Assembly: GCA_938010615.1 (NCBI GenBank)
Contig: CALLUY010000061.1
Coordinates: 1 to 47,507 of the forward strand
Direction: 5' to 3'
DNA: 47,507 bases
From: an uncultured Pirellulaceae bacterium
Lineage (GTDB): Bacteria > Planctomycetota > Planctomycetia > Pirellulales > Pirellulaceae
The notes below the pieces were generated by a model that saw only the letters and a list, made by a program, of their open reading frames with translations, was not told where the DNA came from and ran no database searches. Shown one piece after another: positions 19,176 through 41,057 of this stretch. Numbering within the stretch: position 1 is the stretch's first letter; every line of letters begins with the position of its first letter. Position numbers and translations under genes: made by a program.

Positions 19176-20120
19176 ATGGCCAGCATTGATTCCAAGCAAC
19201 GATTGGCGAACGCCGCCAAGGACTATTTTCGTATTGGCGCCCGGGTGCGTATTAAGTCGGCGACCGATATTTTGGCAACGCTCAACGATGAAGGAAGTTG
19301 TGAAGGTCTGAGCTTCATGCCGCAGATGGTCGGCTTGTGCGGGCAGGAAGCTACGCTGGTTCGCTGGGTAACCAGTAGCTGCGTGCCGACTCGTGATGGC
19401 GTGGTCTTTGGCGGAATAAAGGACGCAGTGTTGTTGGATGTAAAGCGATGTGACGGTGAAGCTTTTGGTGGTTGCCAATTGGGCTGTTCGACGATCTGGA
19501 AGACCCATTGGCTGACCACTGACATTGTAAGTTCGATTGAATCAAGTTTTGATAACGAGGCGAATGTCGAAGCTCTTCACGAACTGAGTCTGCGAAACAG
19601 TCGCATCGACGGCCGAGCCAATTGCCAGGCAACTCAGCTGGTAAAGATCTCCACGTCCAGCGACGGTGCTCGACTGCAGCACTATCGTCAGGAGATGAAT
19701 CTGAATCGCGTGTCAGTTTCGACGATCGCGTCTTCGTTGTGTGGCGGTTTGTTGGCACGAGTCAGCGGTAGATCTGCGAATGTCGTAGGGACATTGGCTC
19801 GGACGCCGGTGACAGATTTGAATCTACAGCCGGGCGATCGCGTTCGGGTGAAATCCAAAGCTGAAATCGTTCAGACTCTCGACACCAAAGGATGCAATCG
19901 CGGTTTGTGGTTCGATCCTTTGATGCTGCGATACTGTGATCAGGAGTTGACCGTCACCAATCGGATCAGGGTTCTGGTCGATGAGACCGATGGCCGAATT
20001 CGAACTTTGAAAACACCATCCGTTGTGCTGGATGATCTACGTTGTGATTCCACGCAGCGTCGATTCTGTTCGCGACTCTTGCATTTGTTTTGGCGCGAGT
20101 GTTGGTTGCAGCGGGTTTAG
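19176..20120 (+). CDS. Tandem Cys-rich domain protein of unknown function
   Basis: A 314-residue cytosolic protein (no signal or membrane segment) built from two copies of one domain of about 95 residues. Copy 1 (about 18-113): GARVRIKSATDIL, GSCEGLSFMPQMVGLCGQE, then VLLDVKRCDGEAFGGCQLGC and HWL. Copy 2 (about 219-314): GDRVRVKSKAEIV, GCNRGLWFDPLMLRYCDQE, then VVLDDLRCDSTQRRFC and WRECWL. Shared cysteines precede EGL/RGL, follow M.x.x.[LY], and occur in RCD and the last C. The pattern suggests a metal- or cluster-binding fold. I vaguely recall single-domain relatives near polysaccharide or natural-product genes but cannot name them. No clear ribosome site; ATG 19176 is the first in-frame Met. 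Confidence 0.7.
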   Translation: MASIDSKQRLANAAKDYFRIGARVRIKSATDILATLNDEGSCEGLSFMPQMVGLCGQEATLVRWVTSSCVPTRDGVVFGGIKDAVLLDVKRCDGEAFGGCQLGCSTIWKTHWLTTDIVSSIESSFDNEANVEALHELSLRNSRIDGRANCQATQLVKISTSSDGARLQHYRQEMNLNRVSVSTIASSLCGGLLARVSGRSANVVGTLARTPVTDLNLQPGDRVRVKSKAEIVQTLDTKGCNRGLWFDPLMLRYCDQELTVTNRIRVLVDETDGRIRTLKTPSVVLDDLRCDSTQRRFCSRLLHLFWRECWLQRV

Positions 20121-20127
20121 TCGGGCA

Positions 20128-20196
20128 GGTGGCATAAGCCTCTGGCTTGTGGACATGCAGAACACAGGCCAGAGGCCTATGCCACCGAGACTTTGG
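20128..20196 (+). repeat. Partial copy A of the composite hairpin repeat (apex only)
   Basis: The central palindrome GTGGCATAAGCCTCTGGCTTGTG / CACAGGCCAGAGGCCTATGCCAC with flanking CGAGACTTTGG, starting eight bases after the stop of the tandem Cys-domain gene. The outer arms found in the four complete copies are missing. Confidence 0.85.
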
Positions 20197-24445: not shown

Positions 24446-24669
24446 GTTTAACGGCAAGCCGTAGGCGACTGCGCGATACCGTAAACGCGCATGCTGACGC
24501 AGTCGCCTGCGGCTTGCCGTTAAACGCAATACCGTTCAATGAAGCCAAAGTCTCGGTGGCATAGGCCTCTGGCCTGTGTTCTGCATGTCCACAAGCCAGA
24601 GGCTTATGCCACCTCCCCAATGCAACGACCCTACTGAATCACCTTCATTGAACGGTATTGCCGTTAAAC
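24446..24669 (-). repeat. Composite hairpin repeat, copy B
   Basis: Complete copy (minus orientation relative to copy A), 96 bases upstream of the hrpA start. Terminal repeats GTTTAACGGCAA and TTGCCGTTAAAC (12 bp). First hairpin: GGCAAGCCGTAGGCGACTGCG with CGCAGTCGCCTGCGGCTTGCC. Second, nested hairpin: CAATACCGTTCAATGAAG with CTTCATTGAACGGTATTG, enclosing the CCTCTGGC palindrome. No coding capacity for a transposase; the frame reading through it is spurious. Confidence 0.9.
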
Positions 24670-31435: not shown

Positions 31436-31660
31436 GTTTAACGGCAAGCCGGAGGCGACTGCGTTGCATTGGCAGATGCCGGGTTCGCGCAGTCGCCTTC
31501 GGCTTGCCGTTAAACACAATACCGTTCAATGAAGGTGATTCAGTAGGGTCGTTGCAGTTGGGGAGGTGGCATAAGCCTCTGGCTTGTGGGCATGCAGAAC
31601 ACAGGCCAGAGGCCTATGCCACCGAGACTTTAGCTTCATTGAACGGTATTGCCGTTAAAC
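31436..31660 (+). repeat. Composite hairpin repeat, copy C
   Basis: Complete copy in plus orientation between pfkB and the GH63-like gene. Perfect 12-bp terminal inverted repeats GTTTAACGGCAA (31436-31447) and TTGCCGTTAAAC (31649-31660). Contains the GGAGGCGACTGCG/CGCAGTCGCC hairpin and the nested GTGGCATAAGCC palindrome. Fills most of the divergent promoter region. Confidence 0.9.
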
Positions 31661-37855: not shown

Positions 37856-38731
37856 ATGCCTAAAACCACAATAATTTATTGGATGTTGGTTTTGGCCATC
37901 GTCACGACGGGTTGCGACCCGGCCGAAGTCGTGGAACGACAGCCAGATCCTCCGGTTGCGGTGGTGAAGGAAGTGGAGGAAGTGGAGGCTGAGTCACCTA
38001 AGGTTGAGTCTGCGACCTCTCCTGCAATCTCTGCGTTCCTGCCGAAGTTTGATGCATTGTCCGCGAAGGGTTTTGTGCCGACTCTCCGTCGCGGGTCAAC
38101 CGGAATCGGCTACACGTTGGAAACGATGTTGAACATCGAGGAGAACAATTCGCCCGGCGGCGACTTCATGGGAATGGAGCTCAAGGCGTTTCGCGACGAC
38201 GATTTGACGATGAATGATTCGGAGAAAATGAATCTGTTCCTCAAGGAGCCAAAATGGACTGATGGTTTGAAGTCCGCTGATCGAGTTCGCAAATACGGAT
38301 ACGTTAATGACAACGGACGCACAGCCCTTTATTCGACGGTCAGAATCGAAATTAATTCACACAAGTTTGCTTTTGAAGTCGAAGACAATTCGTCGAAAGT
38401 GTGGCTGAAGTTCGACGGCCAGCGGATTGCGTATTGGACTCGAGAGATTCTGGCGAAGCGACTCAAGGAGAAGCACACCGAGACCGTTTTCGTTTCAGCG
38501 CACACTCGCGGAAAGGGGCAGGAGGAAGAGTTTCACTATTACGGCGTGACGTGGTGTCGTGAACCATCGGTGGATGAGTTCATTTCGCTATTGCGCGACG
38601 GCGAAGTGATGTTGGAATTGCGGATGCACTTAAAGGAAACCGGTGCGACGCGAAATCACGGAAGCTGTTTTCGCATCAAACAGAATCGGATCAAGGATTT
38701 GTTCAAGCACTCCGTGCAAGTGCGACCTTAG
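37856..38731 (+). CDS. Predicted exported lipoprotein with MvaI/BcnI-type restriction endonuclease domain
   Basis: A 291-residue protein. Residues 1-20 look like a lipoprotein signal (IIYWMLVLAIVTTGC; the lipobox is TTGC rather than the usual L-A-G-C). Residues 21-58 are a Pro/Glu/Val tether. From about 60 to the end the sequence follows the MvaI/BcnI restriction nuclease family as I know it: GFVPTLRRGSTGIGYTLETML, IEENNSPGGDFMGMELKAFR with probable catalytic triad D103-x4-E108-x-K110, and near the C-terminus LELRMHLKETGATRNHGSCFRI. No methyltransferase gene is in the window. A start at an internal GTG (residues 34-43) would remove the signal, but the hydrophobic lead is in frame and follows an ATG. 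Divergent from the ABC gene; a repeat begins 12 bases after the stop. Confidence 0.75.
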   Translation: MPKTTIIYWMLVLAIVTTGCDPAEVVERQPDPPVAVVKEVEEVEAESPKVESATSPAISAFLPKFDALSAKGFVPTLRRGSTGIGYTLETMLNIEENNSPGGDFMGMELKAFRDDDLTMNDSEKMNLFLKEPKWTDGLKSADRVRKYGYVNDNGRTALYSTVRIEINSHKFAFEVEDNSSKVWLKFDGQRIAYWTREILAKRLKEKHTETVFVSAHTRGKGQEEEFHYYGVTWCREPSVDEFISLLRDGEVMLELRMHLKETGATRNHGSCFRIKQNRIKDLFKHSVQVRP

Positions 38732-38743
38732 TTCAGTGTTTTC

Positions 38744-38957
38744 GTTTAACGGCAAGCCGGAGGCGACTACGCCTGCATGAAAAACGCAGTCGCCTCCGGC
38801 TTGCCGTTAAACGCAATGCCGTTCAGTGAAGGTGATTCAGTAGGGTCGTTGCAGTTGAAGAGGTGGCATAAGCCTCTGGCTTGTCGACATGCAGAACACA
38901 GGCCAGAGGCCTATGCCACCGAGACTTTGGCTTCATTGGACGGTATTGCGTTAAACG
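38744..38957 (+). repeat. Composite hairpin repeat, copy D
   Basis: Complete copy in plus orientation, exactly filling the space between the nuclease-lipoprotein stop and the stop codon of the minus-strand secA-like gene, which ends one base away. Same two-hairpin structure; the right arm is slightly shortened (GGTATTGCGTTAAACG). Confidence 0.9.
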
Positions 38958-38958
38958 T

Positions 38959-40812
38959 TTATCCCTGAACCACATCGCAATACGGATCCTGGCCCATTTC
39001 GATATGTCTTTCCTGTCGCTCTTTGTCCTGTTTGAGCAAGATCATGCGATCAACCAGATGCTTCCGCTCCATGCGACGCTGCGCCCGTTGGAAAAATTGA
39101 AAAACTTTCCGTGAATGCGTTCCACGCGCTGGAAGCGAATTGTACTTGCGGCGCAGGCGTTGCGTTTTGGAAGGCCCAAGTCCTTGTAGCAAAACGTCGT
39201 CGTCCATCGAGACGAAAATTCGAAAGCTTCCCGGTTCGCCCTGTCGCGATCCGCGTCCGATCAACTGCCAATCGATTCGTTGGCTCTCGTGAACTTCCGT
39301 CAGGATCACATGCAAGCCTCCTGCGTTTCGAACTTCAGGAGCGAGAATGAAGTCCGTTCCACGGCCCGCCATGTTTGTGGCGACGGTGACTTTTCCGATG
39401 GCTCCAGAGCCCGAGATAATTTCCGCTTCCCGCTCTAGCTGATTTGCGTTGAGCACCTCATGTTCGATGCCGCGTTCGTTGAGCAACCGCGAAAGTCGCT
39501 CAGATTTTTCCACGCTGCGAGTGCCGATCAAAACCGCCCGCGACGCCGCTGTCATGCTTGCGATCTCCGCGACGACGGCATCGAACTTGGAATCGATGTC
39601 AGAGAAAACTGTGGTTGCCAATTGCTTTCGATCGACAGGTCGATGCGTCGGAATGACCGTTGTTTTCTTTTTGTAGACTTTGCGGAATTCACGAGAGCTC
39701 GTCGCGACGGTTCCCGACATTCCGCCAAATTTCTCATACAACCGAAAGAAGGTCTGCATCGTGACCGTCGCACCAGAGCCAACGTTTGGAGTGATTTCGA
39801 TTTTCTCTTTGGCTTCGACCGATTGATGGATGCCGCGTTGCCACTGTCGACCTTCGGCGATGCGACCTGTGAATTCGTCAATGATCGCGATTTTGTCGTC
39901 GCGAATGGTGTAGTGTTGATCAAGTTGAAAGTCGCGACGAACCTTGATCGCGTTTTCCATGTATTCGTAGAGCTTGCGAATGGGAATGCAACGCGTGCCT
40001 TCGTTCTGCGGAAGAGCCCGCATGCGTTGGATTCCGGCGGGCTTGAGTTCTACTTTCTTTTTGTCGTGTTGATATTTGTAGTCGGTGTCTTGGACAAAAC
40101 TGTGAGCGTGCTCCGCCGCCCACCGAAAACAGAACTCGGTCAGTTTCTGTTCTTCCGGATCGGTGATGCCGATGATCAGCGGTGTACGAGCTTCATCAAT
40201 CAGCACGCTGTCAACTTCGTCGACCAAAACATAGTTCAATTCGCGATGTAGAAGTTGTTGTGAGCTTGTTCCGCCAGATAGCGAGAGGCGATCGCGGAGG
40301 AAGTCGAACCCAAATTCCTTTGCCGTCCCGTATGTGATGTCTTTGCGATACGATTTCTTACGTTCTGGTGGCGAAGTCTCGCTGGTGATCACGCCGGACG
40401 TAAGTCCAAGTGCCTTGAAAACGGGGCTCATTAGTTCGTGGTCGCGATTGGCGAGATAATCGTTGACGGTGACTACGTGTGAGCCACGTCCAGTAAGTGC
40501 ATGGAGGTAGGAAGGCATCGTCGCGGTCAGCGTTTTACCTTCGCCAGTTTTCATTTCCGCGATGCGACCTTTGGCGATTTGCATGGCCGCGAAAATTTGC
40601 ACATCGTAGGGAACCATGTCGAGGCTACGACGGATCGCTTCGATGACGATTGGAAACGCTTCGGGGATCAGTTTCTCGAGAGGTTCACCGATCGAAGCAC
40701 GGTACTTGAGCGACAGTCCCGATTTGCGTAGCTCTTCCTCGGATACGTCGGCGAGCGGTTTGGCTCGGCGGCGAATTTTTTGGACAAGCGAGAATTCGAG
40801 GGCGCGGTTCAT
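38959..40812 (-). CDS. Short SecA-like translocase ATPase
   Basis: A 617-residue SecA homologue, against about 900 for canonical SecA. Present: Walker A AEMKTGEGKTLTATMPSYLHAL, VTVNDYLANRDHELM, YGTAKEFGFDFLRDRL, Walker B LVDEVDSVLIDEARTPLII, preprotein cross-linking region, IIDEFTGRIAEGRQW, MSGTVATSSREF, TNMAGRGTDFIL and IGRGSRQGEPGS. Missing: most of the helical wing/scaffold domain after the second nucleotide-binding fold, and the C-terminal zinc-binding CxCxSGxKxKxCC. So it keeps the motor but not the usual SecB/lipid-binding end. Probably an accessory SecA2-like protein; a full-length SecA should exist elsewhere. It is bracketed by inverted repeat copies D and E. Confidence 0.85.
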   Translation of the reverse strand: MNRALEFSLVQKIRRRAKPLADVSEEELRKSGLSLKYRASIGEPLEKLIPEAFPIVIEAIRRSLDMVPYDVQIFAAMQIAKGRIAEMKTGEGKTLTATMPSYLHALTGRGSHVVTVNDYLANRDHELMSPVFKALGLTSGVITSETSPPERKKSYRKDITYGTAKEFGFDFLRDRLSLSGGTSSQQLLHRELNYVLVDEVDSVLIDEARTPLIIGITDPEEQKLTEFCFRWAAEHAHSFVQDTDYKYQHDKKKVELKPAGIQRMRALPQNEGTRCIPIRKLYEYMENAIKVRRDFQLDQHYTIRDDKIAIIDEFTGRIAEGRQWQRGIHQSVEAKEKIEITPNVGSGATVTMQTFFRLYEKFGGMSGTVATSSREFRKVYKKKTTVIPTHRPVDRKQLATTVFSDIDSKFDAVVAEIASMTAASRAVLIGTRSVEKSERLSRLLNERGIEHEVLNANQLEREAEIISGSGAIGKVTVATNMAGRGTDFILAPEVRNAGGLHVILTEVHESQRIDWQLIGRGSRQGEPGSFRIFVSMDDDVLLQGLGPSKTQRLRRKYNSLPARGTHSRKVFQFFQRAQRRMERKHLVDRMILLKQDKERQERHIEMGQDPYCDVVQG

Positions 40813-40839: not shown

Positions 40840-41057
40840 GTTTAACGTCTAGCCGTTAGGCGTTGGCGTTTCGCAGTTCCAAACGCAGTCGCCTCCGGCT
40901 TGCCGTTTAACGCAATACCGTTCAATGAAGCCAAAGTCTCGGTGGCATAGGCCTCTGGCCTGTGTTCTGCATGTCCACAAGCCAGAGGCTTATGCCACCT
41001 CCTCAACTGCAACGACCCTACTGAATCACCTTCATTGAACGGTATTGCCGTTAAACG
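40840..41057 (-). repeat. Composite hairpin repeat, copy E
   Basis: Complete copy in minus orientation, occupying the gap between the secA-like start (40812) and the acyl-CoA dehydrogenase-like stop (41066). The first hairpin is partly degraded (GTTTAACGTCTAGCCGTTAGGCG); the nested hairpin and CCTCTGGC palindrome are intact. Confidence 0.9.

Follow-up and report, generated by a model that had tools for sequence, protein, structure and literature searches.

Restriction enzymes are understood to be cytosolic and tied to a methylase that prevents self-killing. The exported non-specific DNases (secreted or periplasmic enzymes of the EndA, NucA and Dns types) act outside the cytoplasm and need no methylation; their folds are unlike that of an MvaI-type nuclease and they lack sequence specificity. 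No described exported restriction endonuclease was found in the open-licence PubMed Central literature. The analysis below indicates that some Planctomycetes appear to carry a restriction enzyme that is exported from the cytoplasm and that has no neighbouring methylase gene. The gene lies in the window, which is the whole stretch of 47,507 nucleotides that was analysed, from the genome of an uncultured Pirellulaceae bacterium (G000). Its features are as follows.

37856..38731, plus strand: gene of a predicted exported MvaI/BcnI-family nuclease (P0001, 291 amino acids), from the translation and the PF15515, R.MvaI and R.BcnI matches.
37856..37912, plus strand: predicted signal peptide, residues 1–19, hydrophobic from residue 6 (hydropathy scan, lipobox pattern, equivalent signals of homologues).
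37913..37915, plus strand: predicted lipidated Cys20 (VTTG-C; PS51257-like pattern, Gly-Cys in 5/5 genus carriers).
37916..38020, plus strand: linker rich in Pro, Glu and Val, residues 21–55 (low pLDDT to about residue 50; dN/dS 0.25 versus G532).
38021..38728, plus strand: MvaI/BcnI-like nuclease domain, residues 56–291 (PF15515, PDB matches, AlphaFold, Foldseek; dN/dS 0.057).
38162..38185, plus strand: catalytic motif D103-x4-E108-x-K110 (DFMGMELK), residues 103–110 (D, E and K invariant in a 21-sequence alignment).

The original prediction had placed an MvaI/BcnI nuclease with a D-x4-E-x-K site in the C-terminal part of the protein, and this was confirmed. Residues 64–283 matched PF15515 (MvaI_BcnI) over the full length of the profile (positions 3–227 of 227, E = 1.1e-45), and the score of 156.8 bits against a curated cut-off of 25 places the protein in the family. 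A phmmer search of the PDB gave R.MvaI (7e-14) and R.BcnI (1.7e-6) and no other significant relatives. The motif at residues 103–110 is intact, D-x4-E-x-K was present in all 15 intact exported proteins, as in PD-(D/E)xK enzymes, and D103, E108, K110 and 15 further positions were invariant in an alignment of 21 exported and signal-less members. In BcnI, four residues separate the two parts of the motif, according to a review (PMC4081073). The AlphaFold model (22 input sequences) had a mean pLDDT of 85, with residues 1–50 poorly defined and values of about 47–57 across linker residues 21–50. Its best Foldseek match in the PDB was 2oaa (R.MvaI; E = 9.7e-20, TM 0.65/0.75), 2odi matched at 2e-16, and all six fold matches at E ≤ 0.001 were R.MvaI or R.BcnI. 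The model thus has the family fold, and the objection that a PD-(D/E)XK core might be missing fails. Between the window gene and its orthologue in G532 (78% identical; 42–66% identity for 12 other aligned homologues) dN/dS was 0.057 for the domain, 0.25 for the linker and 0.51 for the 20 signal codons. By these ratios the nuclease is an enzyme under strong purifying selection and the putative tether drifts freely.

Export signals were judged by hydropathy and sequence patterns, and the predicted signal peptide ending in Cys, followed by a Pro/Glu tether, stood up to this inspection. The gene is present in 5 of the 28 genomes of the window's genus, and in all five carriers a hydrophobic N terminus ends in Gly-Cys and is followed by a variable Pro/Ser/Glu-rich linker. 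Three of them (the window, G532 and G067) match a strict lipobox pattern of the PS51257 type; in G551 and G134, Gly-Cys follows the hydrophobic stretch and the pattern is broken just before the Cys. The exported type comprises 15 intact proteins, including that of the window, and 4 broken or fragmentary copies, in two related families. In the second of these (f4), PF15515 was found in 16 of 170 genomes, of which 14 hold the exported type (10 intact and 4 broken or fragmentary); the other two, G757 (a partial gene) and G884, are of different types. The lipobox pattern was absent from all 10 intact f4 proteins, whose signals resemble the type I Sec kind. N-terminal signals are shared by the 15 clade members, two of them weakly, and the strict lipobox by three. 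As predictions, "lipoprotein" holds for the genus of the window and "exported" for the whole clade.

The hydropathy scan used the mean Kyte-Doolittle value of a 12-residue segment starting within the first 38 residues. The core mean was at least 2.1 in 13 of the 15 exported proteins and weak in the other two (G835, 1.48; G786, 1.25), whereas the maximum among 11 signal-less relatives was 1.32. A Lys lies before the hydrophobic stretch and acidic residues come after it, the arrangement expected of an exported protein. Chance or a misread start was rejected, as signal-type N termini recur across the clade despite a drift to 42–66% identity. A cytosolic start of the window protein was likewise rejected, since the stretch from residue 10 to the domain holds no in-frame Met; an in-frame GTG start within the linker is formally possible. 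A tree was built from 47 nuclease domains, of which 15 were exported, 16 signal-less and 16 from viral contigs; a branch supported at 99/99 separated the exported ones from all the rest. The broken or fragmentary copies (G826, G852, G743 and G811) occupy neighbourhoods shared with intact f4 copies and show that loss of the gene is frequent. In four genomes (G625, G821, G877 and G732) about 150–170 additional residues separate the signal from the nuclease domain. This insert of about 150–170 residues has no Pfam match in L053 (8372-9712), L055 (8537-9880) and L058 (8545-9876), and may be an undescribed region fused to the nuclease and predicted to be extracytoplasmic.

The flanks were scanned by checking ORFs with C5 and amino-methyltransferase profiles. 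As originally claimed, no methyltransferase was found near the nuclease gene in the 37.8 kb upstream and 8.8 kb downstream within the window, and none was seen at any of the 19 exported loci. Counted separately, a methylase was present in the scanned flanks of 0/15 intact and 0/4 broken exported loci, versus 15/18 signal-less genomic or plasmid loci; the linkage expected of a Type II restriction-modification system is thus lacking at the intact exported loci (Fisher 1e-6 against the signal-less loci, which, like the exported ones, are not independent). Where a genomic or plasmid locus is methylase-positive, the methylase and nuclease genes overlap or lie within roughly 0.5 kb of each other. 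Homologues without a signal but with a neighbouring methylase, which would have spoken against the prediction, thus exist, yet outside the exported clade. Three signal-less loci lack a methylase: L035, where the contig ends 1 kb away, L062, with a partial gene, and L070. Flank length was uneven: L181 and L182 have almost no upstream sequence, and one of the two flanks is short in L027, L030, L053 and L057. The weak or partial phylum matches L015–L020 and the second matches L021 and L022 were left out of the neighbour counts, and the plasmid sample comprised 8 of 21 records (6 via a nuclease and 2 via a methylase match). Among viral-contig and phage loci, 19 of 30 had a methylase in the flanks (the nuclease was not recovered in one); a tblastn search of 50,697 phage records gave 1 record, and viral contigs gave 29 relatives.

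The nuclease gene occupies the same genomic place in the window and in G532 and is therefore a resident gene; a recent mobile restriction-modification cassette is unsupported for the window, whose flanks are common to G532. A phage origin was rejected in that 0/16 viral-contig relatives placed in the tree lay within the exported clade, and a defence island or toxin-immunity pair in that no partner ORF was common to the carriers' flanks. When these flanks, mostly unnamed ORFs, were compared, no neighbour gene pointed to defence or DNA uptake. Adjoining the nuclease gene on the minus strand (38959-40812) is a gene for a 617-residue SecA-like protein (SecA_DEAD, SecA_PP_bind), possibly an accessory SecA; it is also present in G532 (83% identical) and has no counterpart in the flanks of the other compared carriers. 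The window further contains five copies of a 76-nucleotide near-palindromic repeat (20119-20194, 24546-24621, 31556-31631, 38853-38928 and 40932-41007), one just downstream of the nuclease gene. The copies are about 93–99% alike after orienting, two are inverted and longer blocks around some of them are also repeated; the repeat looks like a dispersed element of the REP or MITE kind.

The family, the intact active site, the clade-wide export-type signal and the absence of a linked methylase are computed results. An exported nuclease without a linked methylase suggests DNA restriction that would act outside the cytoplasm, and we assign a probability of about 0.5 to the whole reading, in which a tethered, exported MvaI-type nuclease serves as an extracytoplasmic barrier against foreign DNA. 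We infer its secretion, lipidation, final location, activity, target and biological role. The Sec system would secrete the endonuclease, Cys20 would be lipidated, and the flexible linker would tether the nuclease domain either within the periplasm or at the cell's outer surface. The nuclease would cleave double-stranded DNA at a short defined sequence (judged from the family alone, probably CCWGG or some other CCNGG variant), and phage, transforming or environmental DNA would be destroyed before it reached the cytoplasm. The chromosome would be safe mainly through its separate compartment, and CCWGG methylation by an unlinked Dcm-like enzyme may add a second safeguard. The weak signals (2/15) and the atypical lipoboxes of the genus (2/5) count against this reading, as do the absence of neighbours that point to defence or DNA uptake and the four broken copies.

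A further point against it comes from elsewhere in the genomes. A strong C5 methylase match (PF00145) was found away from the nuclease in 12 of 13 carriers searched, the sole exception being G835, an assembly of 840 contigs with 89% completeness. Fifteen methylases of this kind, 12 from carriers and 3 from non-carriers, align closely, and five of them are 45–58% identical to E. coli K-12 Dcm (53% for the enzyme of G000, the window's own genome). The unlinked methylase scored 323 bits against TIGR00675 (cut-off 100.65), as a C5 enzyme of the Dcm type, and 411 bits against the narrower NCBIfam model NF007772, below its cut-off of 710. With a limit of E ≤ 1e-60 against a profile of the aligned enzymes, the same for genus and f4, a Dcm-like methylase was called in 18 of the 19 carrier genomes, the window's included. 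In no carrier did it lie in the scanned flank of the nuclease; among single-contig carriers the two genes are about 0.86 Mb apart in G452 and far apart in G532. If compartmentalisation were protection enough for the chromosome, such a methylase would not be needed. The original interpretation keeps its nuclease fold, its export-type signal and the lack of a linked methylase, whereas the claim that no self-protection is needed is weakened.

The methylase is commoner in carriers than in non-carriers. In the genus it was present in 5/5 carriers versus 4/23 non-carriers (Fisher 1.3e-3), the four including G538, with G550 (PF00145, 237 bits) failing the limit at 1.6e-36. In f4 the counts were 13/14 versus 32/156 (Fisher 8e-8) or, by genus, 7/7 carrier genera versus 9/51 others (Fisher 4e-5). 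A draw of 149 genomes from the window's family contained the methylase in 5, including the 3 carriers found in an equal-sized draw (Fisher 2e-5). The genomes are related and the co-occurrence could reflect shared ancestry. An RpoB tree of 25 of the 28 genus members (three had no RpoB row) gave three independent contrasts, of which one agreed in direction, two were uninformative and none ran the other way, with G538 scored as methylase-lacking in this count. In the genome that holds the window, rpoB (L165) contains one in-frame TAG as assembled, perhaps an assembly error. The Dcm-like enzyme also matches DrmMII models; no drm gene that would indicate a DISARM context was found among the best 25 of 113 PADLOC families (65 of 77 listed neighbour proteins), and six neighbours of solitary methylase copies were, by Pfam, unrelated to restriction. 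A separate amino-methyltransferase of the SPPY type (L213, L215, L216 and L218), 79–84% identical among G000, G532, G134 and G067, is a possible candidate partner of the exported nuclease; in f4, a motif scan of PF01555 matches gave no classifiable ORF.

The window-genus methylase probably targets CCWGG. In the carrier G551 its gene adjoins that of an EcoRII endonuclease (EcoRII-C 189 bits, EcoRII-N 61 bits), and in the non-carrier G538 an EcoRII endonuclease lies one gene away; CCWGG is the site of both EcoRII and E. coli Dcm (PMC10305163). The EcoRII-type endonuclease of G551 (L103, 4282-6633) stands beside the Dcm-like methylase in a genome that also carries the exported nuclease, which would possibly give that organism a nuclease for the same target in each of two compartments. 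Depletion was calculated for 512 5-mers in samples of 12–75 kb per genome. In the genus, CCAGG/CCTGG was the most depleted of these when 8 methylase-positive genomes were compared with 15 negative ones (p = 5.5e-4), and again versus the 12 genomes without any PF00145 match (p = 1.9e-4, with one other 5-mer tying). This is as expected because methylated C deaminates; of the deamination products, CCTAG was weakly enriched (p = 0.05) and CCAAG was not. Values were 0.39–0.47 in 3 methylase-only genomes and 0.20–0.75 in the 5 carriers; the depletion, equally strong in methylase-only genomes, therefore tracks the methylase and not the nuclease. Two methylase-negative genomes, G552 (0.34) and G536 (0.55), are also low in CCWGG, and G538 was outside the sample. 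In f4, CCWGG was not depleted (rank 399 of 512, 11 versus 10 genomes).

These data bear on a split restriction-modification system, in which the exported nuclease and the unlinked Dcm-like CCWGG methylase would be cognate across the membrane: own or kin DNA, methylated in the cytoplasm, would be spared outside, and unmarked foreign DNA would be cut before entry. If true, such an arrangement would be useful for selective DNA uptake or for sparing the extracellular DNA of kin. The methylase in 18/19 carriers, its enrichment over non-carriers in the genus and f4, and the CCWGG target backed by the EcoRII genes and the genus depletion favour it, as do four systems in which a signal-less MvaI/BcnI nuclease is linked to a methylase of the same subfamily (L060 and L180 of planctomycetes, L178 and L179 of plasmids). 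We nevertheless consider it doubtful. R.MvaI, whose site is CCWGG, cleaves it regardless of C methylation (table 2 of PMC10305163), and this leaves methylation-based protection from the exported nuclease unproven. In addition, three independent contrasts in the genus tree are too few for a test, methylase-positive f4 genomes show no CCWGG depletion, and many genomes hold the Dcm-like methylase without the nuclease. The signal-less relatives nearest in identity, moreover, pair with amino-methyltransferases (L067, L066 and L034) or have no partner in the flank (L035), and not with a C5 enzyme. The co-occurrence may reflect either a functioning, spatially split pair or ancestry.

The solitary position of the gene, without an evident defence cluster, would also suit a nutritional or biofilm DNase that cuts up environmental DNA so that it can be taken up or the matrix turned over, and whose sequence specificity is a relic of its ancestry. 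Environmental bacteria are often predicted to secrete nucleases, in 61% of genomes by a figure given in PMC11495043. A site-specific enzyme is, on the other hand, poorly suited to digestion, no scavenging gene consistently adjoins the nuclease gene in flanks that are mostly unnamed ORFs, and the residues invariant in site-specific family members are retained; we regard this role as rather unlikely. An ordinary cytosolic restriction enzyme, with an inert or mispredicted N-terminal stretch and protection by the unlinked methylase, would account for that methylase in 18/19 carriers and for some weak signals, but is very improbable in view of signal-type N termini in 15 intact monophyletic members (2 weak) versus 0/11 signal-less relatives, the missing in-frame Met from residue 10 to the domain, and the Lys and acidic residues that bracket the hydrophobic stretch.

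Overall, the protein represents a clade-wide form of a known family of nucleases that is predicted to be exported, and its link to CCWGG methylation of the genome is likely but unproven. If the extracytoplasmic barrier is true, a clade with an export signal and without a linked methylase would represent a second solution to self-protection, separation by compartment, and sequence-specific restriction would take place at the cell envelope, the entry point of phage and transforming DNA. An enlarged periplasm in Planctomycetes is described for Tuwongella immobilis (PMC8567305). With a CCWGG-type methylase associated with the nuclease, the idea that self or kin DNA is marked outside the cell is open to direct testing.

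Among known systems, EcoRII shares the methylase subfamily, and its gene stands by that methylase in the carrier G551; its nuclease belongs to other Pfam families (EcoRII-N and EcoRII-C), and none of this kind lies beside the exported gene. The dcm-vsr-MvaI/BcnI cassettes of Gemmobacter and Rhizobium plasmids (L178 and L179) have both the same nuclease family and the same Dcm-like methylase subfamily, but differ in being three adjacent genes, with vsr in between, and in a distant nuclease branch. R.MvaI and R.BcnI have the fold, the full-length PF15515 match and the D-x4-E-x-K motif in common with the window protein. The signal-less relatives examined begin with the nuclease domain or close to it, or carry an extension of a non-secretory kind, and stand beside a methylase at 15 of 18 loci, whereas the window protein has no linked methylase and adds a predicted signal peptide, lipobox and tether to the same nuclease.
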